From positions 31,061 through 95,060 of the IMG/VR virus record IMGVR_UViG_3300047319_001547: 64,000 nucleotides of DNA; one strand, given 5' to 3'. The stretch is from a virus. Positions 39,322-62,085 of the stretch are shown one piece after another. Made by a program: the position numbers and the translations under genes. The notes beneath the pieces were generated by a model. The model had not been told where the DNA came from. It did no database searches and saw nothing but the letters and a program-made list of their open reading frames with translations. Position 1 is the first letter of the stretch. Each line of letters starts with the position of its first letter.

Positions 39322-39894
39322 ATGCAGCGCCAAGACGGAGTGAGACCGGGACGAGTTGTGCGGATCCGCGAGATCGATCTCGCGCGAGTGGGGAACTGCT
39401 GGATGAAGGGCCGACTGCTCGTCGACGATCTCGCGATGGCGATCAGCCACTCGGGCGACTGCTTCTTCAACTACGAGCTTCTCGACTCGTTCCTGCACTA
39501 CGGGGGCGGTCAGGAGATGAGGGTCGGGTATCGAAGGATCCCGGGGAGCAGGTTCGGCGCCTACACGCTGGGGGTGGCGCACGAGTTCCAGCCGAGCGAG
39601 CGGGAGTTCCACCTGCTGATGGCGGGTGAGAACGTCTCGTTCGAGAGCCAGCGGGTTGGAACTCGAGTTCCAAGGGCGCGCCTGGACCCCGACGGGACCG
39701 CCACCGGCAAGACGATCCTGACGGGCCACGTCGTGGCGGGGCGGGAGGGGACGATGCACCACGGGCCGGGCGACACCCACGTCGACCTCGAGACGGGCCG
39801 CCGCACGCCGCTGGGGGCCCGCCGCAGCCCTCCCGGCAAGGCGGAGGGGCGCCGGGTAGTCTCCCACGGCCGGACGCGTCTGAAGGGCGCGTAG
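39322..39894 (+). CDS. hypothetical protein with internal palindrome
   Basis: A 190-residue protein (ATG 39322; ATG 39403 is possible). The core (NCWMKGRLLVDDLAMAISHS, FFNYELLDSFLHY, GAYTLGVAHEFQPSEREFHL) is compact. Palindrome copy 9 is read as GTRVP at residues 113-117 after that core. The rest is a Pro/Gly/Arg-rich tail. Confidence 0.5.
   Translation: MQRQDGVRPGRVVRIREIDLARVGNCWMKGRLLVDDLAMAISHSGDCFFNYELLDSFLHYGGGQEMRVGYRRIPGSRFGAYTLGVAHEFQPSEREFHLLMAGENVSFESQRVGTRVPRARLDPDGTATGKTILTGHVVAGREGTMHHGPGDTHVDLETGRRTPLGARRSPPGKAEGRRVVSHGRTRLKGA
39657..39672. repeat. 16-bp palindrome copy 9 (inside gene)
   Basis: TGGAACTCGAGTTCCA read as GTRVP inside the 39322-39894 gene, between its folded core and disordered tail. 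Symmetry extends to TTGG...CCAA. Confidence 0.95.
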
Positions 39895-39917
39895 GCGCCG
39901 GGCGGCATCATCGCTGG

Positions 39918-41339
39918 ATGACGGCGGTGGTGCGGGACTCCCGGGTGCGGGTCTGCCTGGAGGGGCTGCCCGAGGAGGCGGGAGACCGAATCCGCGCAGC
40001 CTTCACGCACCCGAACCCCCGGCACGGCGATCTGAGGCGCCCCGACGAACCGCGTTTTCTGCGGACGTGGCGGAACGACCGCGGGATGCTGACGGTGCCG
40101 CGCGGCGGCTGGCGGCGCGTTCGGGACGCCCTGCCGGGCGCGTCGTTCGCGGACGCGTGGACGTGGCGCCATCCCGAGCGGGACTTCCCCGACCATCTTC
40201 TGGAGGCGCGCGACTACCAGCGGGAGATGATCGACGCGGCCGCGGTCGGGGAGACGGGGATCCTGCGCGCCCCCACCGGCAGCGGGAAGACGACGGCGGC
40301 GTTCGGGCTGCTGGCGCGCCTGAAGCGCCGGGCGCTGGTGCTGGTCTGGACCAAGAACCTGTTCGAGCAGTGGAGGGAGCGCGCCGGCGCGGAGCTGGGC
40401 CTTACGGGCGACGACGTCGGCATCATCCACGGATCGACGACCCGCATCCGGCCGCTGACGATCGCCATGCAGCAGACCGTCCACTCGCGCTTCAAGCGCG
40501 ACCTCTCGCTTGCGGGCGAGTTCGACGTCGTGGTGGCGGACGAGATCCAGCGGGCCGCCGCCGACACCATGTATGCGGCGATCGACCCCTTCAGCGCCCG
40601 CTATCGGATCGGCATCTCGGCCGACGAGACGCGGCGCGACCGGATGGAGCAGCTCACCTACGACCTGTTCGGCGACGTGCTTCACTCGGTCGACAACCGG
40701 AAGCTCATCGACTCCGGGGCGGTGGTGGACGTCGAGATGCTGGTGGTGCCGACCGACTTCCGGGCCGGCTGGTACCGCTTCCGGCAGGACTTCAACCGCC
40801 TGCTGGCCCAGATGACGACCGACCCGGACCGCAACGCGCTGCTGCTGGACGTGGCGCGCCGGATCGTCTCTCAGGGGCAGCAGTGCCTGATCTTCACCCA
40901 CCGGGTCGAGCACGCGCGCGACATCGACGCCCGACTGACCGAGATGGGGATCCGAAGCGGAACCCTCATAGGCGGCGTCGAGAACGAGATCGCGTTCGAG
41001 CGATCCAAGACGGGACTGAAGTCCGGCGCGGCGCGCGCGGGGGTCGGCACCTACGGGGCGATCGCCCAGGGGCTGGATCTTCCGACCGTCGCGCGCGGGA
41101 TCTGCGCGACCCCGATAGGGAACAACAGACAGCAGATGGGGCAGGTGCGCGGCCGCCTCTGCCGAGAGCCGGGCGGCAAGGGGATCGCGCGGCTGGTCTA
41201 CCTGCTGGACCGGCAGGTGTACGGCACCAAGCCGGTCAGGAACTTCCTCGACTGGTATGGGGTCGTGCGGGTTCTCGAGGGTCGGGAGTGGATCGACGGC
41301 GCCGCTTGGCTGAATGCCCAGAAGGGGAATCGACGATGA
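39918..41339 (+). CDS. SF2 helicase (UvsW-like)
   Basis: A 473-residue protein with SF2 motifs in order: Q-motif area DYQREMIDAAA, motif I APTGSGKTTAAFG (about residues 117-129), motif II VVADEIQRAA (DEIQ), motif III-like GISADE, motif IV LIFTHRVEHARDI, motif V AQGLDLP and motif VI QVRGRLCR. Such phage helicases act on branched DNA in recombination-dependent replication or on RNA. An N-terminal accessory domain of about 90 residues precedes the motor. Confidence 0.8.
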   Translation: MTAVVRDSRVRVCLEGLPEEAGDRIRAAFTHPNPRHGDLRRPDEPRFLRTWRNDRGMLTVPRGGWRRVRDALPGASFADAWTWRHPERDFPDHLLEARDYQREMIDAAAVGETGILRAPTGSGKTTAAFGLLARLKRRALVLVWTKNLFEQWRERAGAELGLTGDDVGIIHGSTTRIRPLTIAMQQTVHSRFKRDLSLAGEFDVVVADEIQRAAADTMYAAIDPFSARYRIGISADETRRDRMEQLTYDLFGDVLHSVDNRKLIDSGAVVDVEMLVVPTDFRAGWYRFRQDFNRLLAQMTTDPDRNALLLDVARRIVSQGQQCLIFTHRVEHARDIDARLTEMGIRSGTLIGGVENEIAFERSKTGLKSGAARAGVGTYGAIAQGLDLPTVARGICATPIGNNRQQMGQVRGRLCREPGGKGIARLVYLLDRQVYGTKPVRNFLDWYGVVRVLEGREWIDGAAWLNAQKGNRR

Positions 41340-41794
41340 GAAAGCGAAGTTCGGTTGCGGGAACCGTCACGGAAGTCAGCCGGGAGCTCGCGAAGAGTCT
41401 CGAATACGTCCGAATGGACGAACCTGAAATTCGAATCCCACCTGGAACTCGAGTTCCAGATCCGGGATTCCCTATGCAGGAAATGGAGGCGGCCAGCAAT
41501 GCCATTTTCGCCGAAGCGCGATCGGCGATGAATGAAGACGCAGTTGGCTCGATCGTGGAGGCGACCTGGGGTGAGGAACTCTTTCAGCCGCTGCAGTTCA
41601 ACACGTTTCGGGTCGGCCCCTTCAAAGCCAGCACGGTTGTGCGTGACGGCGAGACGATCGCAAATGCGATGATTCGTCTTCATCGAGAACTCGATTCGGC
41701 CGCCGCGCAGATTCGCACTCACAAGATCGACGGGTATCTCCGCGCTCTTGTAGATGTCGGTGAGGAAGTTCAGATCCGGCAAAGCAAACGATGA
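41336..41794 (+). CDS. hypothetical protein with internal palindrome
   Basis: A 152-residue helical protein overlapping the helicase stop by ATGA. Palindrome copy 10 is read as GTRVP at residues 37-41, just before the helical region (MQEMEAASNAIFAEARSAMN). The region uses more AT-rich codons than the helicase. No family is recognised. Confidence 0.5.
   Translation: MRKRSSVAGTVTEVSRELAKSLEYVRMDEPEIRIPPGTRVPDPGFPMQEMEAASNAIFAEARSAMNEDAVGSIVEATWGEELFQPLQFNTFRVGPFKASTVVRDGETIANAMIRLHRELDSAAAQIRTHKIDGYLRALVDVGEEVQIRQSKR
41443..41458. repeat. 16-bp palindrome copy 10 (inside gene)
   Basis: TGGAACTCGAGTTCCA read as GTRVP in the N-terminal linker of the 41336-41794 gene. Confidence 0.95.
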
Positions 41795-42309
41795 AGCCGC
41801 CCAACGACCTGTTCGACGATCTGCCGTTCGCGCCGCCGACCAAACGCGGCGTCGCCGCCGAGCAGTTCGCCCGCATGGCGGACGCCAAGCAGGAGCAGAT
41901 CGACCGGCGTCCGAAGGGCTTCAAGCTGTCGCCGACCTCGATCGCGAAGGCGAAGCGCGAGATGGACGAGATGGCGGACGCGGGGGAGTGGACGAGCGCG
42001 CGGGGCGTCCACCTCGTGGCGCTCTACAGCTGGCTTCACGTGGCGATCTACGGCGTCGAGCCCGCGGAGCTCGACGGGCGCGAGTGGGCGCTGGCAAGCG
42101 TGTTGGCGCAGCGCTTCTGCGCCACCAACTTCGAGGGAGACTTCGGGGACTGCGTGGAGTTCATGCGGTGGGTGTGGAAGCGCGAGGCGTCTCGCGAGGA
42201 GTACAGGCGCACCCAGAAGCAGTCGGGCGGCAGGATCGGTTGGCGGCTTCAGTTCGGGGCGGCTCTCGTCACCGACTGGCGGGTCGACCGCGCGAGGGTG
42301 AGCAGATGA
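41791..42309 (+). CDS. hypothetical phage protein
   Basis: A 172-residue protein with ATGA overlap at both ends. Helical with Trp-rich GEWTSARGVHLVALYSWLHV and REWALASVLAQRFCATNFEG. I recall similar proteins near phage replication genes, without a known function. It may be a recombination or replication accessory. Confidence 0.5.
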   Translation: MKPPNDLFDDLPFAPPTKRGVAAEQFARMADAKQEQIDRRPKGFKLSPTSIAKAKREMDEMADAGEWTSARGVHLVALYSWLHVAIYGVEPAELDGREWALASVLAQRFCATNFEGDFGDCVEFMRWVWKREASREEYRRTQKQSGGRIGWRLQFGAALVTDWRVDRARVSR

Positions 42310-42524
42310 GATGGAGACGAAGAAGGTTTGCGCGAATCCGAAGATCCAACAGGCGACTCGTCGAGAGTCTTCGGATTCAGATCCGCGATGACGTGAAGGC
42401 GGGCCGCATGGCGATCGTCGGCGGAGTCGCGATGCCGAGAACTCTCGCGACTGTCGTCCGCACCATGAAGGGGAAGATCCTGGAGAAGCTCCGGATCGAG
42501 GCAAACTTCGATGCGTCAGAGTGA
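42306..42524 (+). CDS. small basic protein
   Basis: A 72-residue protein that starts with an Arg-rich run (MRWRRRRFARIRRSNRR) and overlaps both neighbours. VKAGRMAIVGGVAMPRTL follows. The basic N-terminus suggests nucleic-acid contact. Not recognised. Confidence 0.45.
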   Translation: MRWRRRRFARIRRSNRRLVESLRIQIRDDVKAGRMAIVGGVAMPRTLATVVRTMKGKILEKLRIEANFDASE

Positions 42525-42846
42525 CGGCTGGCCGGACGGCGCGATCGTCGGGTGCGGGATCGGCATCTGCTGGCGCGTGTTCGCGCCGCGTTGGTGGGAG
42601 CTGGGGAGGTGGGTGAACTGGCTGTTCGATCATCGCCCGCACGGATCGCTGACCTTCACGATGACGAACGCAGGACTGCCGGATCGAAAGTTCGATATTC
42701 GCGTCGTGCTGGCCGACTACGCGCCGCCGAACGTGCCCACCACCGAGGCGACGATCGTCCTGTCTGGCACGACGCCTGAAGTCGAGCGTCGCGTGGGCAA
42801 ACGGGTCCGCGGCTGGTACGGCAAAGGCGCAAGGCGGCGGATGTAG
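42511..42846 (+). CDS. hypothetical protein
   Basis: A 111-residue protein overlapping the previous gene by 14 bp and ending one base before the helicase start. It has a Trp-rich N-terminus (GICWRVFAPRWWELGRW) and a beta-like end with a basic tail. Function unknown. Confidence 0.45.
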   Translation: MRQSDGWPDGAIVGCGIGICWRVFAPRWWELGRWVNWLFDHRPHGSLTFTMTNAGLPDRKFDIRVVLADYAPPNVPTTEATIVLSGTTPEVERRVGKRVRGWYGKGARRRM

Positions 42847-44298
42847 ATGCAGGGCGAGCGACGCGGCGCCGAACTAATTTTCCGGGCGGATCCCGTCACG
42901 GAGCAGACCGTGCTGGCGGCCGAGATGGCGGACGCCGAGGTGGCGCGCGCCACGACCGACCGCGTTCCGGCCGACTCCTTCCTGGCGCCCGAGCATCAGG
43001 CGATCCAGCGCGCCATCCGGGAGGCAGTCAGGCGCGGGCTGGGCCGGGACCCGTCGACGCTCGCAAAGCTTTCGAACGGCGAGGTGGAGGTCGGCTACCT
43101 GGCGGAGCTCTCAAGCTCGCGCCCGACCGCGCCGGACGCCGCGACGCTGAAGTTCCACGTCGACCAGCTGCTTTGGGACCACCAGCGCTACGTCGCCATG
43201 ACGGGCCCGGTCTCGAGCCTCATGGAGGCGATCGAGAAGAACGAGTCACCGGAGCGCGTGCGCGCGCTGGCGCGCTCGATCGGGACGTCGTTCGACGGGT
43301 GGTCGGACCGCCGCCACCTTCACGACCCCGATCAGCTGATACGCGAGCAGATCGCCGACGTGAAGCTCCGGATGTCGGGCCGCGCCGTCTACCCGTTCGG
43401 CCTGCCGGGGCTCGACCTGTTCGACAACCCCGACGGCACGCCGTCCGACCGCCGCCGCGTCATCCCGGGCGCCGCACCGGGACTCGTGACGGTCGTGACG
43501 GGTGTGCCGGGCAGCGGGAAGAGCACGCTGGTGGCTCGCAAGGCTCTCGGCCTGGCGCGCCAGAAGCGCCGCGTGCTGTTCGGCGCGTGGGAGATGCGGC
43601 CCGGCACGACGCTGGAGCTCATCGCATGCCTGTCGCTCAACTGGTCGCGCTCCGACCTGACGGAGGGAAAGATCGTCCCCGAGCAGCTGGCGCAGCTTCA
43701 GCTCCGGATGGAGCAGCTGTCGAAGTGGATCCGGTTCCTCGAGAACCCGTTCCGGCGCCGCGCCGGCGGGAAGGTGACGAACGAGGGAAACCTGGACGTC
43801 ATTCAAGGCTATCTGGCGGACGCCGCGTGCGACGTCTTCATAGCCGACCTCTGGAAGCGCTGCCTGAAGGAGACGCGCCCCGAGGACGAGGAGGAGGCTC
43901 TCTATCGCCAGCAGGCCATGGCGGAGGAGATGGGGGTTCACGTCATCCTGGTGCAGCAGCAGCGCCTGAAGGACATCGAGCTGCGGCCCGACAAGCGCCC
44001 GACCCGCGAGGGCATCAAGGGCAGCGGCGCCTGGACGGAGGTGCCGGACAACATCTTCGGCGTCCACCGCCCCGCCCTCTGGAAGCCCGTCCCGGACAAC
44101 GTCCTGGAGATCGACGTTCTGAAGCAGCGCTACGGGAAGTGGCCGCTGGCGGTCGAGTTCGACTGGGACCCGGACCGGGGACAGATCTCGGGCGGACGGT
44201 CGGTCGAGTACGACCAGGCGGCCGCGATGGGGGAGGGCGGATCGAATCCGATCGATCAGAAGCTGCACGCCGGAAGGGGCGGCAAGAAGAAGTCATGA
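42847..44298 (+). CDS. DnaB-like replicative helicase
   Basis: A 483-residue protein. The N-terminal domain (EQTVLAAEMADAEVARATTD...FLAPEHQAIQRAI) looks like the DnaB N-domain. The RecA-like core has Walker A TGVPGSGKSTLVA (about residues 217-229), the Walker B-like DVFIADLWKRC, an H4-type loop with VHVILVQQQRLKD, and an arginine-rich segment later. Together with the primase downstream (45461) it would form the replisome front end. Confidence 0.8.
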   Translation: MQGERRGAELIFRADPVTEQTVLAAEMADAEVARATTDRVPADSFLAPEHQAIQRAIREAVRRGLGRDPSTLAKLSNGEVEVGYLAELSSSRPTAPDAATLKFHVDQLLWDHQRYVAMTGPVSSLMEAIEKNESPERVRALARSIGTSFDGWSDRRHLHDPDQLIREQIADVKLRMSGRAVYPFGLPGLDLFDNPDGTPSDRRRVIPGAAPGLVTVVTGVPGSGKSTLVARKALGLARQKRRVLFGAWEMRPGTTLELIACLSLNWSRSDLTEGKIVPEQLAQLQLRMEQLSKWIRFLENPFRRRAGGKVTNEGNLDVIQGYLADAACDVFIADLWKRCLKETRPEDEEEALYRQQAMAEEMGVHVILVQQQRLKDIELRPDKRPTREGIKGSGAWTEVPDNIFGVHRPALWKPVPDNVLEIDVLKQRYGKWPLAVEFDWDPDRGQISGGRSVEYDQAAAMGEGGSNPIDQKLHAGRGGKKKS

Positions 44299-45460: not shown

Positions 45461-46447
45461 GTGGTCGCGCCGGTCGACCGCGCGCTTGAGAAGCTCGGGA
45501 TCGTCGCTCAGCGCCGGGGCGGAAGATGGTGGGCGGAGAACTGCCCGCTGCCGACTCACGGCCAGCCGAATCCCGAGCATCGTTGGCAGAACTTCTTCGT
45601 AAGAGACAACCGTTCGCCGCGTCCCGGACAGTTCCACTGCTTCAGCTGCAAGTCGGGCGGGACGCTGGTCGAGCTCGTGATGGCGATGCGCGACGTCGAG
45701 TTCGCAGACGCGGCCGATTGGCTCAGGACGCTGGGCGAGCAGGCGCCGCCACCAGTCCTCAGCGTGAGGTTCGACCCGACGGGCCCGCGCGTCTTCCGGA
45801 TGCCTGTGGGGGTCGAGTTCACGCCGCTCGAGGAGTGGAACAGCGTGCCGCGCTCCTACCTGGAGGGGCGCGGAGTCGACTCTCAGCAGGTGAAGGGGTG
45901 GGGGATCGGCTACGCGCTGGAGGGCAGGCTGGCGGGCAGGATCGTGATCCCGATCCGGGACCAGCGGGGCCGACTGGCGAACTACGCGGCCCGCACGTTC
46001 GTCGGCGACGAGACGCGCTACCTGGCGGCTCAGTCGAGCGAGCGGCCCGACAAGTCCGCCCTCTGGGGGGAGGAGTTCTGGAAGGAGCCCGGCTACCTGC
46101 TGACCGGGCGGGACGTCGTGGTGGTGTTCGAGGGGGCGCTGAACGGCCTGGCGATCGAGCGCGCTCTGCGGAGTTGGAACTCGAGTTCCAGGCCGTCGCT
46201 GGCGGGCCTTCAGGGCAGCGAGCTCGATCACCGAAGGCTCGCGAAGCTCGGGACCTTCCGGACGATCGTCTGCGCGACCGACCCCGACCGGGCGGGCGAC
46301 CGGGCGGCGCGCGAGATCGCCGCCGCGCTGGGACGCCGCGCGGACGTCCGGAGGGCGCGCTATCCTGACGAGCGTGACGCAGCCGACCTGCAGCGATGGG
46401 AGCTCGAAAAGATGCTCGCCGAGACGACGTCCCATCAATGGGAGTGA
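45461..46447 (+). CDS. DnaG-type primase (CHC2 + TOPRIM)
   Basis: A 328-residue protein from GTG 45461. The N-terminal zinc site is CPLPTHG...FHCFSCKSGGTLVELVM (Cys28, His33, Cys60 and Cys63 as likely ligands). The TOPRIM part has VVVVFEGALNGLAIERAL (the Glu motif) and VCATDPDRAGDRAAREIA (the DxD-like motif DPDR). Palindrome copy 11 is read as WNSSS at residues 239-243, between those two TOPRIM motifs, an unusual place. It makes RNA primers for the DNA polymerase at 53187 with the DnaB-like helicase. Confidence 0.85.
   Translation: MVAPVDRALEKLGIVAQRRGGRWWAENCPLPTHGQPNPEHRWQNFFVRDNRSPRPGQFHCFSCKSGGTLVELVMAMRDVEFADAADWLRTLGEQAPPPVLSVRFDPTGPRVFRMPVGVEFTPLEEWNSVPRSYLEGRGVDSQQVKGWGIGYALEGRLAGRIVIPIRDQRGRLANYAARTFVGDETRYLAAQSSERPDKSALWGEEFWKEPGYLLTGRDVVVVFEGALNGLAIERALRSWNSSSRPSLAGLQGSELDHRRLAKLGTFRTIVCATDPDRAGDRAAREIAAALGRRADVRRARYPDERDAADLQRWELEKMLAETTSHQWE
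46175..46190. repeat. 16-bp palindrome copy 11 (inside primase)
   Basis: TGGAACTCGAGTTCCA in the TOPRIM part of the primase gene, read as WNSSS. It is the only copy used in this frame. Confidence 0.95.
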
Positions 46448-46475: not shown

Positions 46476-46661
46476 ATGGGGGTCGACCGGGAGCTGACGA
46501 TCCGCCACGTGCTGGCCCTGGAGAGCGGCTGCGTGACGGCGGCCGCCCGGCGCCTCACCATCACGCGCGAGGCTCTCTGGCAGCACATGAGGAGCCTGGG
46601 GATCGGCTCCCTGCCGAAGCGGCTGCGCGACGAGGCTCGCCGAAGGTTCGTCGTGCCGTAG
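46476..46661 (+). CDS. small Fis-type HTH protein
   Basis: A 61-residue protein from ATG 46476. LESGCVTAAARRLTITREAL followed by WQHMRSLGI is a Fis-like helix-turn-helix (NxTxAARxL...). The start has no clear ribosome site. It and the next gene make a pair of tiny Fis-like proteins directly after the primase; both are candidates for binding the palindrome as dimers. Confidence 0.55.
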   Translation: MGVDRELTIRHVLALESGCVTAAARRLTITREALWQHMRSLGIGSLPKRLRDEARRRFVVP

Positions 46662-46680: not shown

Positions 46681-46872
46681 ATGACGTTCCGCCTGACCGA
46701 CATGGCCTACCTGGTGAGATCCGACCCCGCGCGCGCCCGGCGCAAGCTGAAGGCCGCGCTGAAGAAGAGCGGGGGAGACGTCACGCAGGCGGCGTTCCAG
46801 TTCGGCGTGACGCGCCGCACGTTCGACCGCTGGACGGCGCTCGTGCAGGCCCACGCCCTCCCACCTATCTGA
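46681..46872 (+). CDS. small Fis-type HTH protein
   Basis: A 63-residue protein (MTFRLTDMAYLVRSDPARAR...). LKKSGGDVTQAAFQFGVTRR followed by TFDRWTAL is a helix-turn-helix like that of Fis/NtrC C-terminal domains. It follows a similar protein by 19 bp. A roughly 90-bp spacer to the next gene holds TAGACA and TAAGCCTAGG elements that could be a promoter. Confidence 0.55.
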   Translation: MTFRLTDMAYLVRSDPARARRKLKAALKKSGGDVTQAAFQFGVTRRTFDRWTALVQAHALPPI

Positions 46873-49235: not shown

Positions 49236-51137
49236 ATGAAATCCCACCACAACGCTAAGGCGATCGAAGCTCAGTACGAGGTGAGGATCGGCGGCGATTC
49301 TCGCTGGCAGCATCAGGCGCGAGATCTCCGAGATCTGCGTCGGGCTACTTCCGGGGATTCGTGGCGCGTTCTTTACGTGGCCTTCATGGGCAGCGGGAAG
49401 ACGGTCGTCGCCGCGAAGCTCGTGAACGAGTGGGTGGCCGCCGGCCAGCGCGCCCTGGTGCTGACCCACCGCCAGGAGATCCTCGAGCAGACGGACGCGA
49501 AGCTACGGAAGGCCGGGATCTCGGAGGAGAAGATCGGCATCATCTGGCGCGACAGCCCGCGCGCAAATCCGTCCGCTCCCGTCCAGCTGGCGAGCATCGA
49601 CACGCTTGTGCGACGAGATCGCCCGGAGGGCATCACCCGAATCGTCATCGACGAGGCGCATCACGCCGCCGCCGCGAAGTGGCGGAAGGTACTGGCGTGG
49701 TATCCGGGCGTCCCGATTCTCGGCATGACCGCCACCCCCGAGCGTCTCGACGGCAAGCCGTTAGGCGATCTGTTCGACACGATGGTGGAGAGCGATCCGC
49801 CCGAGACACTCATCAACGCCGGCACGATCTCCCGCCCGGAGGTCTACGGGCGAGACGACGACTGGATGCCCGACATGACGGGCAGCAAGAAGCGCGGTGG
49901 AGATTGGCGTCCCGAGGACGCAGCGGCCGCGATGTCCGGGACTGTCATCGTCGGGTCGATCCCGGGTCACTGGCGCAAGCACGCCGAGAACCTGCCGACC
50001 GTAGGGTTCGCCGCGACGGTCGCGCAGGCCGAGGGGCTGGTCGCTGCCTTCATGAAAGCGGGGATACGCGCCGAGCTGCTGGTCGGCACGATGAACTCGT
50101 TCCGGCGCCGGGGAGCACTTGCGAGGCTGAAGAGCGGCGAGACGAAGGTGCTGTGGACGTGCGACGTTCTGGGCGAGGGGTGGGATTACCCGGGGGCGCG
50201 CTGCGCCATCTTGGCCCGCCAGACGTGCTCGCTGGCTCGTTACCTTCAGTGGTGCGGGCGCGTCATGAGGGCGGGCGCCGTCACGCCGAAGATTCTCGAC
50301 CACTGCGGGAACTACAGCATCCACCAGGGGCCACCCTGGCAGGACCAAGAGTGGGATCTCCACAAGAAGAGAGGAGACCGGAAGATCGTCGCGCGGAAGG
50401 CAGAGGGAGGGCGCGTCGAGTGGCTGCCGCCTGTCCAGATCGAGGGGCAGTTGGTGCGGTTGGGAGAGAAGCCGAGACAGAGGGTTTGCGCAGGAATCCC
50501 CGGGAGAAATTGTGATAAAATCCCTCATAGGGCGGCGTTTTATTCGAAGCAAATTCAAAGCCGACGCGGCGAACCGTGGCGATGCAAATCGTGCGCCGCT
50601 CATCCGAATGTTCTGCTGCCCCAAGAATATTGTGCTGGGTCGGGTGACGGGCTGCTGTGTAAAAATAAAACGCCCGTACGGGCGTTTTCTCCTAAACAGA
50701 CTCGTTCTAGAAATGGCGAACCGTGGATTTGCCAATCGTGTTTTCTGAAGAAAAGAGATAGACACATAGTAAATAGGCAATTGGTATGTGATGGGTGTTT
50801 TGGCGAGCCTTGCCCGAAGGCGGCAATTCCTCCGCGCAAGGCATTGCATCCGAGCAGTTTTAGAAACCGAGGCGGTCCTTGGAAGTGCGTCAGCTGTGCT
50901 ATGCGTAAAACCGCTCCATCGACGCAGCTTATTTGTGCTGGATGGAAAGGAAAATGCCCAAGCGCAGCGGTTCCCGTCAAGCACGCGTTCAATCCGGCAA
51001 TTGTCAGAAGTCGAAATGGCGAACCGTGGCGATGCAAATCGTGTGGCGCTAGAAAAGCTACAGATACGATTGGTAAAAGTCGGCTGCGAGAGATCAGACA
51101 ACGCGCGTGGGACAGCCGGAAGGGGAAGAAGTCGTGA
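49236..51137 (+). CDS. SF2 helicase with four tandem C-terminal zinc-ribbon repeats
   Basis: A 633-residue protein with AAGGA upstream. Helicase part: motif I AFMGSGKTVVAAK (about 49-61), Ia LTHRQEILE, II VIDEAHHAA, III GMTATPER, IV AATVAQAEGLVAAF, V GEGWDYPGA, VI LQWCGRVMRAG. From about residue 415 four copies of a unit follow (C-x-G...C...P...AF-x-P/..., S/NRxGEPWxCxSC): VCAGIPGRNC, YCAGSGDGLLC, VCDGCFGEPC and ICAGWKGKC start them. This half is distinctly AT-rich. The unit could bind DNA or RNA. I know no helicase with exactly this tail. Confidence 0.75.
   Translation: MKSHHNAKAIEAQYEVRIGGDSRWQHQARDLRDLRRATSGDSWRVLYVAFMGSGKTVVAAKLVNEWVAAGQRALVLTHRQEILEQTDAKLRKAGISEEKIGIIWRDSPRANPSAPVQLASIDTLVRRDRPEGITRIVIDEAHHAAAAKWRKVLAWYPGVPILGMTATPERLDGKPLGDLFDTMVESDPPETLINAGTISRPEVYGRDDDWMPDMTGSKKRGGDWRPEDAAAAMSGTVIVGSIPGHWRKHAENLPTVGFAATVAQAEGLVAAFMKAGIRAELLVGTMNSFRRRGALARLKSGETKVLWTCDVLGEGWDYPGARCAILARQTCSLARYLQWCGRVMRAGAVTPKILDHCGNYSIHQGPPWQDQEWDLHKKRGDRKIVARKAEGGRVEWLPPVQIEGQLVRLGEKPRQRVCAGIPGRNCDKIPHRAAFYSKQIQSRRGEPWRCKSCAAHPNVLLPQEYCAGSGDGLLCKNKTPVRAFSPKQTRSRNGEPWICQSCFLKKRDRHIVNRQLVCDGCFGEPCPKAAIPPRKALHPSSFRNRGGPWKCVSCAMRKTAPSTQLICAGWKGKCPSAAVPVKHAFNPAIVRSRNGEPWRCKSCGARKATDTIGKSRLREIRQRAWDSRKGKKS
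50667..50688. other. 22-bp perfect palindrome inside helicase gene, terminator-like
   Basis: AAAACGCCCGT followed at once by its reverse complement, ending in TTTT. As RNA this is a stem closed by GTAC with a T-tract on either strand, so it looks like a bidirectional intrinsic terminator, yet it lies inside the second zinc-ribbon repeat coding for KTPVRAF. Confidence 0.8.
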
Positions 51138-51853
51138 GCTCCGAAGCGGCGAAGCTTCTCGATGACGCGGCGCACGCGCTCCGCGCCGGCACCATCACGG
51201 CGAACGAGTTCCTGAAGAGGACAGGTCCCCGCTGGCGCTCGACCGCGCGCCATCTCCACACGCGATGGCGCAGGAAGCTGCCGGCGTGGGTGGAGCGTGA
51301 CGACGTCGAGCAGGAGCTGAAGATCTTGGCGGTCGAGTTCGTCCGTACGTGGGACGCGGATCGATCCACCCGGGCGTCCCTCGGCAGCTACGTGATGTGG
51401 TGCGCGGTCCACCGCACGCAGCGCAAGATGGATCACTGGCGCGGCGCGTCCCTGACGGGCAACTCCGGGAAGAACCCAGGACGCCACGAGCTGGCGTTCT
51501 CGCGCGTCTACGACCCGGCGGACGGCGACCCTGGAACTCGAGTTCCAGCTCCCGAAGACGACCCGATCGATCGGCTGGAGTCGGGCGAGCAGTTCGAGAT
51601 CATCCTGGCGCGCTGCCAGACGGTCCGCCAGGCGCTCGTCCTGCTGGCCCTCAGGGCGACCGACGGGGCGGTCGACAAGGCGGCTGACGCCCTCTGGCGG
51701 AACTTCAGGGCCCGCCTGGAGTGCGACCTCAGGAGCGAGCAGCACGCCGCCGAGGTGGTGCGGCGCGTCATCGAGGAGTGCGAGTCCCTGGGGGAGGCGC
51801 CGGCCGACGTCCGGCCGCCCGCCGACCTGTTCGACGAAGTCGGCGCGGCATAG
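51134..51853 (+). CDS. sigma-70-like transcription factor
   Basis: A 239-residue protein from GTG 51134 (GTGA overlap). WVERDDVEQELKILAVEFV, TWDADRSTRASLGSYVMWCA and VHRTQRKMDHWRG correspond to sigma region 2 (2.1-2.4). A linker with palindrome copy 12 (GTRVP at residues 134-138) joins it to a C-terminal part (ALVLLALRATDGAVDKAADA) that could be a region 4 HTH. It may redirect host RNA polymerase to late promoters. Region 4 is not clear enough to be sure. Confidence 0.55.
   Translation: MSSEAAKLLDDAAHALRAGTITANEFLKRTGPRWRSTARHLHTRWRRKLPAWVERDDVEQELKILAVEFVRTWDADRSTRASLGSYVMWCAVHRTQRKMDHWRGASLTGNSGKNPGRHELAFSRVYDPADGDPGTRVPAPEDDPIDRLESGEQFEIILARCQTVRQALVLLALRATDGAVDKAADALWRNFRARLECDLRSEQHAAEVVRRVIEECESLGEAPADVRPPADLFDEVGAA
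51532..51547. repeat. 16-bp palindrome copy 12 (inside sigma-like gene)
   Basis: TGGAACTCGAGTTCCA read as GTRVP in the linker between region-2-like and region-4-like parts. Confidence 0.95.
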
Positions 51854-53190: not shown

Positions 53191-55733
53191 ACGAACCGGC
53201 GTACGTCAACGGGTTCGTCGACGGCGCCGATCTGGTGCTGCTCTACCGAGACGACGCCGGGCAGATGATGGCGCGCAGGAAGCGCGCCGAGTGGTCGAAC
53301 TTCTTCCGGCGCGCTGATGTCCCAGAACGCGTGTTGCGCGACCTGCGCAACAGCAGCCGCGTGGTGGGGATCTCCGAGGAGGGGGAGTGGACGCGGGTCC
53401 GCTGGCAGGCTCCCGAGTGGCGCCGGAAGATCTTCGGGCTGGAGCGCGGCCGCGATTCGGTCGACTTCTTCAAGTCGGAGCTCGGCATCGATCACTTCGA
53501 GGCGGACGTGGATCCGATCCGCCGCTTCTTCTCCGACACGGGCGCCGAGGTGGCGCTCCCGCGCCGCGCCTACCTGGACATCGAGACCGACTCGCGCGTC
53601 TCGCCCGTCCTGGCCCGCCAGGGAAAGGCGCGCGTCCTCTGCTGGACGCTCTGCCGGGAGGACGAGAGCATCATCGCCCAGGGGTGTCTGGCGGAGGAGA
53701 GCGACGAGGCGGAGGCCGCCATTCTGGAGCACCTCTGGCGGTCGCTGGAGCCGTACGACCAGGTGGTGGCGTGGTACGGCGACGGGTTCGACCATCCGAT
53801 CGTCCGCATGCGGGCAGACATCGTCGGGGCGCGCCACAAGGACTTCCGTCGCTGGCTGTTCGTCGACCACATGGTGGTGTTCGAGCGCAACAACAAGAAC
53901 AGCGCGGAGTCGGGCGACGAGAAGGTGAGCCTGAAGCTTCAGGACGTCGCGATGGCGAAGGTGGGCGAGGGCAAGTCCGATTTCGACGCGTCCAAGACGT
54001 ACGAGGAGTGGGCGGCCGGGGGAGAGCGGCGCCAGCGGATGGTCGACTACTGCGCGCAGGACACTCGACTGCTGCCGAAGATCGAGAAGAAGACGGGATA
54101 CCTGGCGCTGCACGACGCGGTCTGCGTCGTCACGCGCTGCTTCTCGGAGACGCGCTCCGCGCAGCCCACGATCTTCGTCGACGGCTTCATGCTGCGGCTC
54201 GGCGCCGAGCGGAACCTGCACTTCCCGACGCGGAAGTACCAGTTCGAAGAGGAGAAGAAGGACCACAAGAAGTTCCGCGGCGCCTGGGTGATGGAGCCGA
54301 CCAAGAAGGGAATCGTCAAGAACGTCCACGTGGCGGACTTCTCGGGCATGTATCCGAGCATCATCGAGACGTGGAACATGTCGCCGGAGACGAAGCGCGA
54401 CATCCCGGTGAACGGTCCGATCCCGCCCGGCCACTGCCGGGCACCGTCGACCCGCATCGGGTTCGTGACGAGCCCGCAGGGCATCCTGGCGTTCGCGGTC
54501 GAGGAAATAGGTCGCACGCGGAAGGTCTGGAGCAAGAAGCAGGCGGCGCTGCCGCCCGGCACGCCCGAGTGGCGCTACGCCGGGCAGCTCTCGATGGCGT
54601 TCAAGGTCGTTCGCAATTCGTTCTACGGAGTCGCCGGCAGCCCGGCCGCGCGGTTCTTCGATCCCCAGATCGCGGAGTCGATCACGCAGAACGGCGTCTG
54701 GCTGATTCAGATGACGATCAACGAGGGGGACAAGCGCGGGATCGAAGCCATCTACGGCGACACCGACGCGCTGAATGCCACCCAGACGACGCGCGAGCGG
54801 TTCGCGGAGTTCGTCGAGTGGTGCAACCGGGAGCTCTATCCGCCCGCCATCGCGGCGACGGGCTGCACGGAGAACCGCGTCGAGATCGCCTACGAGAAGG
54901 AATTCGAGCGAATCGTCTACGTCTCATCGAAGCGGTACTGCGCGACGTGGGCTCACTACAAGTGGACGGCGTCCTGCAGCTGCACGACCGACAAGGGCGA
55001 GCCGGGCGCGCTCGACATCCGGACGATGACGTGCCGGGACTGCGGACTCCATCACGCCGCGCTGCCGCCGCCCCGGGGCGAGCCGGAGGTGAAGGGACTC
55101 GAGTACAAGCGGGGAGACGCAGCCAAGCTGGCGCGCGCCCTTCAGTGGAGCTGCATCCAGAAGCTGATGGTCGACCTCTCAGAGGAGCCGACCGACTTCG
55201 TGCCGATCGTCGAGAAGATGCGCGACTACGTGCTGACGGGGGATCTGCCGGTGAAGGAGGTGCAGATCTCGAAGTCGATCTCGAAGTCGCTGAAGGAGTA
55301 CGCGACCAAGGAGAAGAAGGACGGAACGCCGACCGAGGATCTGGCGCACGTGAAGATCGGGAAGATCCTGCGCGAGCGAGGCCAGCAGATCGTCGAGGGA
55401 ACGCGGATCTTCTACTACGTGGTGGACGCGTCGGTGTCGCCCCAGATCGTCGCGCCGGCCGACGACTACGCGGGCGAGTGCGACCGCCACTACCTCTGGG
55501 ACTCTCTCATATGGCCCGCGACCGGCCGGCTGCTGGCGGCCGCCTTCCCGGATCACGACTGGAGCCCGTACGAGAAGACGCGCCCGCGGAAGGTGCGGGG
55601 ATCGTCGAAGGAGCAGACCGCGTTCGACCTGCCTGGAACTCGAGTTCCAACTCAGCGTCGCGGCGGCCGCGGTGCACCGCTCGGCCAGGGGGCGCTGTTC
55701 GACCTGCCGTCGCCGGCGGCATCAAGCAAGTAG
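53187..55733 (+). CDS. family B DNA polymerase
   Basis: An 848-residue protein from GTG 53187. Exonuclease motifs: Exo I AYLDIETD (about 129-136), Exo II VVAWYGDGFDHP, Exo III DYCAQDTRL. Polymerase motifs: A ADFSGMYPSII (about 383), B KVVRNSFYGVAG (about 473), C YGDTDAL (about 523, Ala where Ser is usual), then SKRYC and KGLEYKRGD. Between the last two lies an insert with CSC...CRDC (about 596-616), likely a zinc ribbon. The C-terminus has QGALFDLP, a match to bacterial clamp-binding QxxLF. Palindrome copy 13 sits in the linker before that motif. Confidence 0.9.
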   Translation: MNEPAYVNGFVDGADLVLLYRDDAGQMMARRKRAEWSNFFRRADVPERVLRDLRNSSRVVGISEEGEWTRVRWQAPEWRRKIFGLERGRDSVDFFKSELGIDHFEADVDPIRRFFSDTGAEVALPRRAYLDIETDSRVSPVLARQGKARVLCWTLCREDESIIAQGCLAEESDEAEAAILEHLWRSLEPYDQVVAWYGDGFDHPIVRMRADIVGARHKDFRRWLFVDHMVVFERNNKNSAESGDEKVSLKLQDVAMAKVGEGKSDFDASKTYEEWAAGGERRQRMVDYCAQDTRLLPKIEKKTGYLALHDAVCVVTRCFSETRSAQPTIFVDGFMLRLGAERNLHFPTRKYQFEEEKKDHKKFRGAWVMEPTKKGIVKNVHVADFSGMYPSIIETWNMSPETKRDIPVNGPIPPGHCRAPSTRIGFVTSPQGILAFAVEEIGRTRKVWSKKQAALPPGTPEWRYAGQLSMAFKVVRNSFYGVAGSPAARFFDPQIAESITQNGVWLIQMTINEGDKRGIEAIYGDTDALNATQTTRERFAEFVEWCNRELYPPAIAATGCTENRVEIAYEKEFERIVYVSSKRYCATWAHYKWTASCSCTTDKGEPGALDIRTMTCRDCGLHHAALPPPRGEPEVKGLEYKRGDAAKLARALQWSCIQKLMVDLSEEPTDFVPIVEKMRDYVLTGDLPVKEVQISKSISKSLKEYATKEKKDGTPTEDLAHVKIGKILRERGQQIVEGTRIFYYVVDASVSPQIVAPADDYAGECDRHYLWDSLIWPATGRLLAAAFPDHDWSPYEKTRPRKVRGSSKEQTAFDLPGTRVPTQRRGGRGAPLGQGALFDLPSPAASSK
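55634..55649. repeat. 16-bp palindrome copy 13 (inside DNA polymerase)
   Basis: TGGAACTCGAGTTCCA read as GTRVP in the disordered C-terminal tail of the polymerase, between AFDLP and QGALFDLP. Confidence 0.95.
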
Positions 55734-56577: not shown

Positions 56578-56903
56578 TGAGCCAACTGCACCCGACCGCC
56601 GAAGACGACGCGTTTGCGAGCGGGCACGCCGACGCGGGACTCCGCAAGGCGCTGCGGCGGATCGAACGCCTGGAGGGACTTCTGAAGAGGGTGTGGGCGT
56701 GCCGCCACGTGGGACTGTCCCCCGAGTTGTCCCGCGACATCCCGCAAGCGCTGTCGACCACCCACTACGATGAGGTCGACGATGGTGCGTGGCGATTCCC
56801 AAAGACGCCTATCCGCGCCGCCGTCCAAGCGCGTCAGGATGGATTGCATGATTTGACTGCATTGGAATCGAATGCGGCAATCATAAATAAGAAGCGGGGC
56901 TAG
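56577..56903 (+). CDS. hypothetical protein
   Basis: A 108-residue protein (MSQLHPTAEDDAFASGHADA...). LRKALRRIERLEGLLKRVW is a basic amphipathic helix. The last 20 codons are AT-rich. TGATG overlap with the previous gene. Function unknown. Confidence 0.45.
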   Translation: MSQLHPTAEDDAFASGHADAGLRKALRRIERLEGLLKRVWACRHVGLSPELSRDIPQALSTTHYDEVDDGAWRFPKTPIRAAVQARQDGLHDLTALESNAAIINKKRG

Positions 56904-56922
56904 GGCCCCAGGAGAAGAGCAG

Positions 56923-58257
56923 ATGAACACCGGAGCGCCCCGCGGGGGCATGAACATCGACCAGTTCCTCGGTCACTCGAGCAGAGGTCGCAAGCAGAAG
57001 ATGCTGGGTGACTGGAAGGACACGCCCGAGCACTCCATCATCGTGTGGCTTCACACCAACGCGTCCATTCTGGCGCTCTGGCGCCACAACTGGAAGCGCA
57101 TCAACGTCTGGGAGGATCGTCAGACGCGCGCCGTCACGCGGTCCGTCTGGGTCGACCGCATCGTCTGCTACGAGCACGAGGAGAATCTGAAGGTTCAGAA
57201 CTTCCGCGACAAGACGACGGGCGCGCGCGAGTATCCGCCGGTCCTCTGCCCTCACTGCAAGATGATCGAGCACTTCCGCGGGATGGTGGGACGCAGCGAG
57301 CTCAATTGGTGCGCGCCGGTGTTCGGCTTCCAAGGAGACGACCCGGCGAAGCACGAGACGATCCACGCGGGCGGTCTCTGGAACGCATTCGGAGACAAGA
57401 ACCTGACGGCCGTCCAGAAGGCCGAGATGGCGGCGGTGCTCCCGAAGGACGGCGGCCCCATCTACTCGAAGAACGCCTGGAAGGAGAATCAGAAGGCCAA
57501 GCTGGAATACGCCTTCACGGTCGTGGTGGACGCGAAGCCGGAGGACGGAATCCAGATCACCGTCGGGCCGAACGATCTGGGCCAGAAGGTCCAGGAGGTG
57601 ATCGCCAAGAGCATGAAGGAGCTCGGGCGCGAGGACGGCAACCCTGCAATCCATCCATTCGCGATCCAGTGGGAATACAACCCCGCAGACGGCGTCGAGT
57701 TCGGCAAGCGATACGACGCGACTCGCATGGGGAAGATCCGTCTCCGTCCGGCGATCGAGAAGCTGATACGCGTCGACGAGCCGCCGAGCCTCGTGCAGCT
57801 CGCCGAGCCGTTCAATCTCCAGACACACCGCGCCAACCTGGAGCGCCACTGCCTCGTGAAGGGGATCCCCTGGGATTCATTCTTCGAGGCGGCCCGCGGC
57901 GCTGCTGTGCAGGTTCCGATCAACATTGATTCGGGAAGACTGACGGCCGAAACCCCGCGCAGAGATCCAGAGCAAGTTGCTCTAGTCGGAGCGCTGTCGG
58001 ACGCGGCTGAACCCGAAGTCGTCGACGCCGATGGCAATCCGTTGTTCGGTTGCGACACCAAGGACTGCAAGGGCGTGATGCGCGCGACCGACACGGAGTG
58101 CCCGGCGTGCCATCGCTCCTACAAGGTTGCGGCCGCCGCACCGCCGCCCGCCCCAGCGCTTCCGAAGCGCTCCGAAGTCATGGCACGCGCAGTTGAACCT
58201 CAGCCTGCAGCGCCCACGACATCTCCCCCCGTCGAAGACGACGACATCCCATTCTGA
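56923..58257 (+). CDS. ssDNA-binding-type protein with SSB tail
   Basis: A 444-residue protein. It ends in EDDDIPF, the conserved acidic tip by which bacterial SSB recruits partner proteins. Before the tail is a Pro/Ala linker and a zinc site CDTKDCKGVMRATDTECPAC; another CPHC lies near residue 109. The core (about 30-320) is large and not a simple OB fold by eye. It lies just upstream of the RecA-like gene. I infer a gp32/SSB-like role: coating ssDNA and recruiting host or phage partners by the tail. Confidence 0.65.
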   Translation: MNTGAPRGGMNIDQFLGHSSRGRKQKMLGDWKDTPEHSIIVWLHTNASILALWRHNWKRINVWEDRQTRAVTRSVWVDRIVCYEHEENLKVQNFRDKTTGAREYPPVLCPHCKMIEHFRGMVGRSELNWCAPVFGFQGDDPAKHETIHAGGLWNAFGDKNLTAVQKAEMAAVLPKDGGPIYSKNAWKENQKAKLEYAFTVVVDAKPEDGIQITVGPNDLGQKVQEVIAKSMKELGREDGNPAIHPFAIQWEYNPADGVEFGKRYDATRMGKIRLRPAIEKLIRVDEPPSLVQLAEPFNLQTHRANLERHCLVKGIPWDSFFEAARGAAVQVPINIDSGRLTAETPRRDPEQVALVGALSDAAEPEVVDADGNPLFGCDTKDCKGVMRATDTECPACHRSYKVAAAAPPPAPALPKRSEVMARAVEPQPAAPTTSPPVEDDDIPF

Positions 58258-59420: not shown

Positions 59421-59428
59421 GACGCGCG

Positions 59429-59821
59429 ATGTTCACGATAGAACGCTGCCTGCCGCACCCTCTCTGCGAGGCTGAATTCCTCGTCGTCGATGAAGTTCGG
59501 CGTCTCCTCCCGGGGGCCACCGTCGAATTCCAAACAATGATTTCGCCGACCATGCTGTTCGACGTCGGCGTGATGCGCGTTCGCAAGGGAACGAAGATTC
59601 TGGAGATCTCTCTGGCGCTCGACGGGTTGGCTCACGCGGACGACTTCGGCGCCGGCATGATCGATCTCATTCTGAAGACGTTCCGAGACGCGGTTGTGCA
59701 CCTGCTGTTTCCGACATTCCGGATCGGCCGCGCTGCTCCGCGCCATCTGAAGCCCGCCATCCTGGATCGTCCGGAGGCGAAACCCTGGAGGAAGTTTCGA
59801 TGCTCCCGATTCTTCTGCTGA
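59429..59821 (+). CDS. hypothetical protein
   Basis: A 130-residue protein from ATG 59429. ILEISLALDGLAHADDFGAG and a preceding strand set suggest a small alpha/beta fold. It overlaps the next gene by 22 bp. Not recognised. Confidence 0.45.
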   Translation: MFTIERCLPHPLCEAEFLVVDEVRRLLPGATVEFQTMISPTMLFDVGVMRVRKGTKILEISLALDGLAHADDFGAGMIDLILKTFRDAVVHLLFPTFRIGRAAPRHLKPAILDRPEAKPWRKFRCSRFFC

Positions 59822-60228
59822 TCGCGTCGTGGCTTCACCCAGGAGCTGAGACGCGCCACCGCGCCTTTCTGGAGACGGTCGCAAAGTCATCACCCAGTGA
59901 GGAGATCGCCGCCGAGGAGCTCGTGTTCGCCGAGCACGAGAGCCGGTTCGGCGACGCGCTGAACGGCGTCCACTGGGACCCGGAGGCTCACGGGATCCTG
60001 CAGATACGCGGCTGGGGGAGTCGGTTGGATCGCGACGAGGTGGCGAGCGCACGCGCGTGGCTTCAGATCCGCGCCAAGGCAGCGAAGGCGTGCGGTGAAG
60101 AGAGCGCGCTCGCGGGGCTGTCGTCCGGCCACTGCGACCGTGCGATCCAGCTTGCGGGAGAACGCGCCGCGGAGGCGCGCTGGCTTCTGGGAATTGCTCG
60201 ACTGGTGCAAAGATGCCGAGGCCGTTGA
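59800..60228 (+). CDS. lytic transglycosylase/lysozyme-like exported protein
   Basis: A 142-residue protein with a signal-type start (MLPILLLIASWLHPGAE). The core FAEHESRFGDALNGVHWDPE, then GILQIRGW follows the SLT lysozyme-like pattern (catalytic Glu in the ESRF segment, then GxLQI). Two Cys in the second half (KACGEES, HCDRAIQ) may form a disulfide. It could be the endolysin or a secreted muralytic enzyme; no holin is adjacent (the holin-like genes are at 37827-39005). Confidence 0.65.
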   Translation: MLPILLLIASWLHPGAETRHRAFLETVAKSSPSEEIAAEELVFAEHESRFGDALNGVHWDPEAHGILQIRGWGSRLDRDEVASARAWLQIRAKAAKACGEESALAGLSSGHCDRAIQLAGERAAEARWLLGIARLVQRCRGR

Positions 60229-60890
60229 CCGGTACCGTTCGCTACGACGTCAAAAAAGGGGCGTATCAGTATAAGCTGACGCTTCCAGACGGAAGCAGAA
60301 CGCCCTGGATCGCCGTAACTCCAACGGCGAGGAGCGCGATTGCCGAGGCACGAGTTCGCGAGGTGGCTCTAGAGGCATCACAATTGGCGCATCAGACGTG
60401 TGCGTGTAGAGCGGAATTTCTCGTCGAGAAATCTGTAGCGCCCGACGATTTGATTGACGTTGGTCCGCCGATCCAAAACTTTCGTTGTCCATTTATTCGG
60501 GATCCGGCTGTCCAAAAGAAAGAACGCATCAAGCAACTCAAAGAAAAGTTCGCGGTTAGAGTTTGGGCAAAAGAAGCGATTCGGTCTGCGAGACGACGAG
60601 CGGTCAAAAGAGGCTTAGATTTCGATCTCGATGAGTGTTGGCTCATCGGTAAGTTGGCGATGATTTCAACAAGGTGCCCCGCGCTAGGCACGCTCTTGAA
60701 ATTTTCTGCCAAAGGGTATGATCCGTCGTCGGCTAGCCTCGATCGAATTTTGCCAAATCTGGGATACGTAAAGGGAAACGTCGAGATTATTTCGCGAAGA
60801 GCGAATACAATAAAAAACGACGCAACCCCAGAGGAACTAGTGCGAATTGCTCGTTGGGTATCTCGCGCGCGCGGCAACGGAAGTCCGTGA
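60213..60890 (+). CDS. HNH endonuclease (homing-type)
   Basis: A 225-residue protein, markedly AT-rich from about 60240 to the end, unlike both neighbours. The C-terminus STRCPALGTLLKFSAKGYDP, SASLDRILPNLGYVKGNVEI and RRANTIKNDATPEEL is the HNH pattern of phage endonucleases (Cys pair, Asp-Arg, GNVxxISxRANxIK). The N-terminal part has an AP2-like beta segment. It separates the lysozyme-like gene from the SbcD-like gene and is probably inserted. Confidence 0.8.
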   Translation: MPRPLTGTVRYDVKKGAYQYKLTLPDGSRTPWIAVTPTARSAIAEARVREVALEASQLAHQTCACRAEFLVEKSVAPDDLIDVGPPIQNFRCPFIRDPAVQKKERIKQLKEKFAVRVWAKEAIRSARRRAVKRGLDFDLDECWLIGKLAMISTRCPALGTLLKFSAKGYDPSSASLDRILPNLGYVKGNVEIISRRANTIKNDATPEELVRIARWVSRARGNGSP

Positions 60891-61621
60891 GCCGAATCGT
60901 CAATTCGTCCGACTGGCATACAGACGCCGCAACGTACGGCGTCCAGCGATTCCAGGACGTCGGCGACGCGGTACGGCAGACGGTGCGCGCTGCGATTGCC
61001 GAGAAGGCGGATCTGTATCTGTTCACCGGCGATCTCTGCGATCCGGACGACGGGCCGTGGGCTCTGCAGAGCATCGGGTTCATCATCTCGGTGGCGGTCG
61101 AACTGTCGCGCCACGGGATCCCCTTCTGGGCGATCGCCGGCAATCACGACGTCATCGACGACGGGACGGGACGGACGACGCTGACGCCGCTGCGCGACAT
61201 CGGGCTTCCGGAGGTGAGGGTGTTCGAGCAGCCGGAGATCGCCACCATCCCCGGCAAGTCGAAGTTCGACCCCGACCATCGGCCGGTTCAGATGCTGGCG
61301 CTGCCCTTCACCGCGACGTCGCACTCGTACGACCCCACGATGGCAGTCGAGATGGCGGCCGACCGGCTGGGGATGCGGGCAGTCGTGGCGGGCCACATGA
61401 CGAGCCTCGAGAGCGTGCGGGAGGGCGAGGAGACGACCGAGATGCCGAGGGGCCGCTCGATGAGGTTCCCGATCGAGAGCTGCCGGCCCGGATGGCTGAA
61501 GATAAACGGCCACTGGCACGAGCGTCAGGTCTGCAACGGCGTCCACATCCCGGGGTCGGTCGCGCGCCTGTCGTTCGGCGAGGAGCGCAACACGCCCGGC
61601 TACCTCGTCTTGGAGATCTGA
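60887..61621 (+). CDS. SbcD/Mre11-like nuclease
   Basis: A 244-residue protein from GTG 60887 (GTGA overlap). Metallophosphoesterase motifs in order: SSDWHTD (the DxH), GDLCDPDD (GDxxD-like), AIAGNHDV (GNHD), VVAGHMTS and NGHWHERQ (GHxH). These bind two metal ions for nuclease action. It is partner to the SbcC/Rad50-like ATPase that begins at 62337; together they would correspond to T4 gp47/gp46 that process DNA ends. Confidence 0.85.
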   Translation: MSRIVNSSDWHTDAATYGVQRFQDVGDAVRQTVRAAIAEKADLYLFTGDLCDPDDGPWALQSIGFIISVAVELSRHGIPFWAIAGNHDVIDDGTGRTTLTPLRDIGLPEVRVFEQPEIATIPGKSKFDPDHRPVQMLALPFTATSHSYDPTMAVEMAADRLGMRAVVAGHMTSLESVREGEETTEMPRGRSMRFPIESCRPGWLKINGHWHERQVCNGVHIPGSVARLSFGEERNTPGYLVLEI

Positions 61622-62085
61622 TGGCGCGCCGCAAGCAGCCTGAAACGAAACGTCGACAGTTGGCCGCAAGTGCCGACGGTTTGGAACTCGAGTTCCAGGT
61701 CGACGTGAGGGAGCTGGAGGGCGACCGGCCGCTGGTCAGGATCGCCGCCGACGATCAGATCTGGCAGACCGTTCTGCTGCACGACGCGTGGGACTCGACG
61801 CTCGACCCCGCACTGAAGGGCGCGATCGTGCGCATCGATCCGCCGATCGACTGCGACGAAGCGGTGATCGACACCGTCCAGTCCTGCTGCGAGCGAGCAG
61901 GAGCACTGGCGGTCCGAGCGTCGCCCCGCCGGCGCAGCAGGACGCTGACCGATCAGCCGGCGCGCCAGAAGGCGCACCACCGCGCGCGGGAGGTCGTCTG
62001 CGAGCTGGTGGCGGCCGCGAACGTCGAGGACCAAGCCGCGCTGGCGGCATTCTGCGAAACCGTGATGGCCCGTGTCGGGCTCTGA
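61621..62085 (+). CDS. hypothetical protein with internal palindrome
   Basis: A 154-residue protein (TGATG overlap). Palindrome copy 14 is read as LELEFQ at about residues 20-26, forming an N-terminal strand. The rest (IAADDQIWQTVLLHDAWDST, DEAVIDTVQSCCERAGALAV) is alpha/beta. It lies between the two end-processing genes; function unknown. Confidence 0.5.
   Translation: MARRKQPETKRRQLAASADGLELEFQVDVRELEGDRPLVRIAADDQIWQTVLLHDAWDSTLDPALKGAIVRIDPPIDCDEAVIDTVQSCCERAGALAVRASPRRRSRTLTDQPARQKAHHRAREVVCELVAAANVEDQAALAAFCETVMARVGL
61682..61697. repeat. 16-bp palindrome copy 14 (inside gene)
   Basis: TGGAACTCGAGTTCCA read as ELEFQ in the 61621-62085 gene, the only intragenic copy in this frame. Confidence 0.95.

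Follow-up and report, generated by a model that had tools for sequence, protein, structure and literature searches.

Dispersed palindromes in a lineage of uncultured phages, and the small HTH proteins that may read them

Why would a phage carry one palindrome, letter for letter, inside six of its genes, where it is read in all three frames? The locus that raises this question belongs to a 95,060-base uncultured viral record. We analysed its positions 31061-95060, a stretch of 64,000 nucleotides referred to here as the window, in whose coordinates the features below are given. The phage encodes a DnaB-like helicase, a DnaG-type primase, a family-B polymerase, a UvrD-like helicase, a UvsX-like recombinase and an SbcCD-like nuclease, together with tail-sheath-like and tape-measure-like proteins. 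No phage in INPHARED was found to match its DnaB-like protein. The gene at window positions 56923-58257, common to the lineage, encodes a zinc-motif protein that ends in DDDIPF and resembles a phage single-strand DNA-binding protein.

An exact palindrome throughout one phage genome

The palindrome TGGAACTCGAGTTCCA is present in 14 exact copies in the window, where shuffled sequences would be expected to hold 0.22 even with three mismatches allowed. Over the whole 95-kb record there are 24 exact copies, none with one or two mismatches and one with three. All 24 are preceded by Y at position -1 and followed by R at position +1, and therefore the full site is YTGGAACTCGAGTTCCAR, 18 bp long. We give the length of the palindrome in this phage as 16-18 bp; its exactness and its perfect dyad symmetry are direct observations. 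Copies recur about once per 4 kb across the genome. When viral contigs were searched with TGGAACTCGAGTTCCA, one other contig matched, with a single copy.

The initial annotation, made without database searches, had located six copies inside genes and had read them as GTRVP four times (39657, 41443, 51532, 55634), as WNSSS once (46175) and as ELEFQ once (61682). All six are present and exact, and the readings held, in three frames. They are listed here (no strand is assigned to any copy of the palindrome):

39657..39672, copy within the 39322/39358 gene, reads GTRVP
41443..41458, copy close to the N-terminal end of a small ORF (~41420-41791, MDEPEIRIPPGTRVP), reads GTRVP
46175..46190, palindrome copy in the primase gene, reads WNSSS, in a 6-7 residue insertion beside the TOPRIM motif
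51532..51547, copy in the sigma-like protein, within its linker, reads GTRVP
55634..55649, copy in the family-B DNA polymerase, within its C-terminal linker and ahead of a QGALF clamp-like motif, reads GTRVP
61682..61697, copy in the 61621-62085 protein, within its N-terminal tail, where the residues are LELEFQ (the site itself being ELEFQ)

The ORF around 41443 (MDEPEIRIPPGTRVPDP...) was missed by the gene caller and is supported by its open frame. In the protein that starts at 51107/51134, the first part is sigma-like, with weak support (FliA, E 0.002).

The site is found more often between genes than chance would place it there, with 13 of the 24 copies of the record being intergenic (enrichment p 2e-7). 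Those in the window are the following, with the relatives that carry a site in the same place:

4208..4223, intergenic copy
9967..9982, intergenic copy 4 bp past the stop of a Mu-F-like gene; G012 and G021 have a site here too
16462..16477, intergenic copy 3 bp past a stop; G001 has a site here too
18363..18378, copy between genes, upstream of the one for the tail-sheath-like protein; G021 and G009 have a site here too
23750..23765, copy in the gap between two divergent genes
27422..27437, copy between genes, downstream of the one for the tape-measure-like protein; G001 and G002 have a site at a similar place
36156..36171, intergenic copy; G012 and G019 have a site here too
38585..38600, copy in the gap between two divergent genes

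Next to the site at 23750 is a short cluster of minus-strand genes, which includes a small RNA-ligase-like gene (22610-23191).

Relatives and their own palindromes

Searches with the helicase, the capsid and the primase gathered about 40 further records; a polymerase-based search of IMG/VR found no relatives. Most of these phages carry a dispersed palindrome of their own, and none carries TGGAACTCGAGTTCCA. There are about 26 distinct palindromes among 32 phages with such arrays, with 14-30 copies per genome and a central CpG in 31 of the 32; this turnover of the word is shown directly. Examples are YTCGGAAGATCGATCTTCCGAR (14 copies), AGTCGAGGCCCGGGCCTCGACT (17), CCGCAACACGTGTTGCGG (29), TTGGAAACCCGGGTTTCCAA (18), CCCAAACCCGGGTTTGGG (26) and GAGATAACACCGGTGTTATCTC (16), and the closest relative by helicase (63%) has 20 copies of GGGAACCCGGGTTCCC, which is two steps per half-site from TGGAACTCGAGTTCCA. 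The arrays are usually exact, with the exception of G020 and G021, where everything beyond a core of 10-12 bp is degenerate. Three phages (G026, G035 and G041, the whole records behind L100, L111 and L117) carry gapped inverted repeats (ACCAAAA-N6-TTTTGGT, 16 copies; GTGTCT-N7-AGACAC, 16 copies; AGATCT-N9-AGATCT, 20 copies), which probably represent the same system with a spacer added. In a few relatives, no array could be detected.

One of the relatives, G016, has structural genes (capsid, tail) in common with our phage but a different replication module. It has no palindrome, and it is without DnaB, PolB, UvsX and associated genes. Since G016 retains the structural genes only and is without the palindrome, it follows that the palindrome trait travels with the replication module, a linkage we regard as shown. 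Two genes mark this module in the window:

42847..44298, plus strand, DnaB-like helicase, marks the replication module with which the palindrome trait travels
45461..46447, plus strand, DnaG-type primase

The same pair of genomes also provides an example of a replication module exchanged wholesale between phages with common capsid and tail genes.

The placement of the sites follows similar lines across the lineage. Intergenic enrichment was found in 9/9 genomes tested (p 1e-5 to 1e-22), and intergenic sites lie a median of 7 bp past a stop codon, with 59/100 within 12 bp. Divergent gaps are used about twice as often (12/30) as co-directional ones (100/473), and about a third of the sites (60/174) are inside coding sequence. 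Spacing is more even than random in 13/16 genomes. No fixed distance to starts was observed, nor was any promoter-like, conserved or AT-rich flank at a fixed distance, and on the latter grounds a promoter operator was rejected. There is likewise no origin-like cluster, the even spread continuing through the structural genes. Mapped through orthologous genes, 96 sites lie no more than 60 bp from a site of a relative. Circular shifts gave 32±5 such coincidences, and a matched null that keeps the intergenic or in-gene character of each site gave 55±8 (maximum 80 in 300 runs). Even spacing and place conservation are thus both shown: the places of the palindrome are partly kept across phages although the words differ.

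Sites inside genes

With relatives at hand, the question of the in-gene copies can be approached through their orthologues. It had been claimed that the DNA and not the peptide is under selection, and this is supported in four ways. All three frames are used, in this phage as well as in its relatives, and in-gene sites taken together are distributed 10/37/10 over the frames, with one preferred. At the same linker or tail, relatives carry their different palindrome and usually a different peptide. In-gene sites also lie where their proteins show least conservation and most gaps: over 21 sites, conservation of the segments is poor (mean percentile 0.21, p ~2e-5) and gaps are abundant (p ~9e-8). 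Lastly, the primase copy is an insertion of 6-7 residues that is missing in 7/9 orthologues. This copy had been placed within TOPRIM, where an insertion would be least expected; we locate the insertion next to the TOPRIM motif. It is only for the primase that "insertion" is clear, and the other in-gene sites are in variable segments that vary in length anyway.

The copies in the linkers of the sigma-like protein and the polymerase were confirmed as such, and relatives have their own sites at aligned positions. For the sigma-like linker this is seen in G019. For the polymerase linker it is seen in G018, with the site of G002 being ~27 bp off by mapping. The N-terminal tail of the 61621 protein holds the phage's own word in 4/5 orthologues (G000, which is this phage, G002, G018 and G019), and the four tail peptides read LELEFQ, ESRPGPRL, TEPGFR and TDDRSSV. 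Homologues that lack the palindrome and still keep the same five residues with other codons would have refuted selection on the DNA; the orthologues were examined for this, and no such case was met. The sole orthologue that keeps GTRVP with other codons is the G018 polymerase, and it does so because its own dispersed palindrome encodes GTRVP. This polymerase gene (L060:7813-10698) contains two of that phage's palindromes, the first at residues 2-8 and the second within the C-terminal linker.

A further claim, that none of the three frames contains a stop, is true for TGGAACTCGAGTTCCA but fails as a rule of the system. A stop codon is present within the palindrome in 9/32 phages, and the 23 that are open are only modestly above the 19 expected by shuffling. 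The idea that a stop-free design lets the element sit in any gene was therefore rejected, and the open frames of TGGAACTCGAGTTCCA are considered incidental.

A candidate reader and the possible functions of the array

One to three tiny HTH genes are found directly behind the primase, and in this phage there are two, named here F and W:

46476..46661, plus strand, protein F, 61 aa, Fis-type HTH, AlphaFold pLDDT 89.5, candidate reader
46681..46872, plus strand, protein W, 63 aa, HTH_8/NtrC-type HTH, AlphaFold pLDDT 84, candidate reader

The top Foldseek match of F is E. coli Fis (0.5 A over 42 columns), and those of the W model are ZraR, NtrC and Fis. With Pfam HTH_8, W scores 24.9 bits, above the cut-off of 22, and F 17.0, below it. 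At only 61-63 aa in this phage, F and W have neither the N-terminal arm of Fis nor an AAA+ domain. The sites to which Fis itself binds are degenerate.

In a profile search, 24/28 palindromic phages have at least one F/W-type HTH beside the primase; the two profiles cross-match, so that the count means no more than "at least one such HTH". This search gave no match in G036, G037, G038 and G045, four palindromic phages that belong to a distant branch. Conversely, an obvious array is lacking in G044, which has both F and W, and in G030 and G034, which show a W- or F-like match. The similarity of the HTH region of W correlates weakly with that of the palindrome (r 0.225, p 0.011); two other regions tried gave p 0.06-0.08, and the result depends on the region compared. 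No correlation with palindrome similarity was seen for F. Co-variation of W with the word, from recognition-helix comparison, is thus a weak signal and can be called suggestive at most. In G009, the phage with most sites (29-30), two Fis-type HTH domains are fused in one 175-aa protein (L043:10987-11514). Autoregulation was considered and rejected, as the sites are not specially close to the HTH genes (mean quantile 0.44).

Where these genes lie, how their products are modelled to fold and how often they occur together with an array lead us to infer that F, W or both are likely to be the reader of the palindrome; there are no binding data, and binding as a dimer is itself an inference. Since a half-site of 11 bp is longer than what a single recognition helix can read, such reading would require both F and W, or additional contacts. 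The mechanism we propose is that the palindrome would be a double-stranded DNA recognition site for a phage-encoded dimeric protein, repeated genome-wide and read by one or both of the tiny Fis/NtrC-type proteins behind the primase. The in-gene copies would belong to the array like any others, and would be tolerated because the protein segments around them are disordered or variable. The word would have been rewritten across the lineage, presumably together with its reader, with many places kept. The most likely job would be a nucleoid-like one, that is, spacing, bridging, anchoring or marking phage DNA throughout the genome. Even coverage of every module suits such a genome-wide role, but even spacing would also suit a silencing array. 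That F/W bind a phage-specific site genome-wide, for genome organisation or for transcription control, is a reading we consider as likely to fail as to stand, with both binding and function inferred. As to function, none of which is shown, we would place organisation, anchoring or marking first, transcription roadblocking a close second and replication third.

Two known phage systems are closest to this one. Corndog, of the Cluster O mycobacteriophages, has 34 nearly invariant copies of a 17-bp dyad of unknown function, partly intergenic and about one third within genes, in a phage that is not obviously temperate (PMC4351075). Its motif, TGTTCGG-N3-CCGAACA with a 3-bp spacer, is common to five closely related Cluster O phages (PMC4351075). 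Many invariant, dyad-symmetric copies between and within genes are also what we find here. However, the Corndog motif is not the motif of this phage, and our lineage is deep, with an ungapped palindrome of its own in almost every phage, partly kept places and a linked candidate reader gene. The other system is that of the Cluster A stoperators (L5, Bxb1), with 20-30 sites per genome in short intergenic gaps and a motif that differs between relatives, each repressor preferring its own sites (PMC6550527, PMC9283540). The 24 copies of our phage, 13 of them intergenic, meet this description. In contrast, stoperators are asymmetric 13-bp sites that are oriented with transcription and belong to temperate phages, whose immunity repressor, a monomer with two domains, binds them (PMC6550527, PMC9283540), while the site described here is a perfect palindrome with tiny Fis-like HTH candidates beside it, in a phage where no integrase or ParA was found and ParB_N is absent. 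Among chromosome organisers (Noc, RacA, SlmA, parS/ParB, KorB operators), the sites are likewise exact palindromes dispersed over a replicon, with copies inside genes being tolerated, and several of them also have a central CG; their readers are larger proteins of other families than F and W. A ParB/parS or KorB system, suggested by a 16-bp CG-centred palindrome, was rejected, with ParA absent and ParB_N not common to the phages (over the cut-off in 8/14 genomes, and absent from this phage, G010, G020, G023 and G042).

Of the alternatives to genome organisation, stoperator-like control remains possible. A regulator at each site would block or pause RNA polymerase and thereby time or silence expression genome-wide, and the 14-30 copies in all modules, just past stops and before the next start, resemble Cluster A; the more frequent use of divergent gaps also speaks for it. 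Against it are the dyad symmetry of the sites, their lack of a fixed distance to starts or a promoter-like flank, and the lack of any sign of lysogeny, which we infer from the absence of integrase (PF00589), serine recombinase (PF00239) and ParA (PF13614) in 14 genomes (this phage and 13 relatives). It is less probable that the sites serve replication, priming or recombination, with F/W recruiting primase, helicase or SbcCD/UvsX to many start points. The trait and the HTH genes, which lie behind the primase, do travel with the replication module, and SbcCD-like and UvsX-like genes are present in this phage. However, the array has no origin-like cluster and is spread as evenly through the structural genes, and SbcCD and UvsX are common in phages without such sites.

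The remaining explanations we consider very unlikely. A selfish, REP-like palindromic element copied around the genome would account for exact copies and for the insertion in the primase, but not for places conserved between phages with different words or for the in-place rewriting of all copies, and the tested families gave no transposase or recombinase signal. A hairpin acting in transcripts as a terminator, processing or translational element would suit the many copies between stop and start codons. Yet every ungapped array is self-complementary in its four central bases, which leaves no loop and is not something a hairpin would need; the flanking bases vary independently, with C-A combinations in 7/24 copies, as suits DNA half-sites; about a third of all sites lie in coding sequence; and there is no Rfam match. 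Just as doubtful is an operator for a host factor, spread by host-driven selection. TGGAACTCGAGTTCCA does contain the LexA box GAAC-N4-GTTC, but the palindromes of most relatives do not fit it and the word changes phage by phage.

A bolder reading, which we hold to be no more than possible, is that of a lytic-phage lineage with a self-identity code, in which a genome-wide palindrome array is read by a minimal Fis-like protein pair encoded beside the primase. If true, the word would differ per phage, all copies being rewritten in step with the reader, and each phage would organise, silence or mark only its own DNA during co-infection. Dispersed identical phage sites such as those of Corndog and the stoperators were previously seen one cluster at a time. 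The present case is a deep lineage with ~26 natural variants of one system, in which places are kept, words rewritten and a small candidate reader is available. The role of such arrays in phages that are not obviously temperate can now be tested, as can the question of how a protein is able to switch to another DNA word if dozens of sites have to switch along with it.

Two observations on individual relatives may be added. A 103-kb contig titled Methylocystis sp. MAG (L096, JAMBEQ010000266.1) belongs to a related phage or prophage. Its own palindrome is GTCAAGACGTCTTGAC, in 3 exact copies and 2 that differ by one mismatch, and its primase is followed by two HTH genes. The contig offers a possible lead to a host, although the binning may be wrong. 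In G044, G026 and G001, CGAGCTCG (104 and 68 copies) or TCGAGCTCGA (12) is strongly over-represented, separately from the dispersed palindromes.
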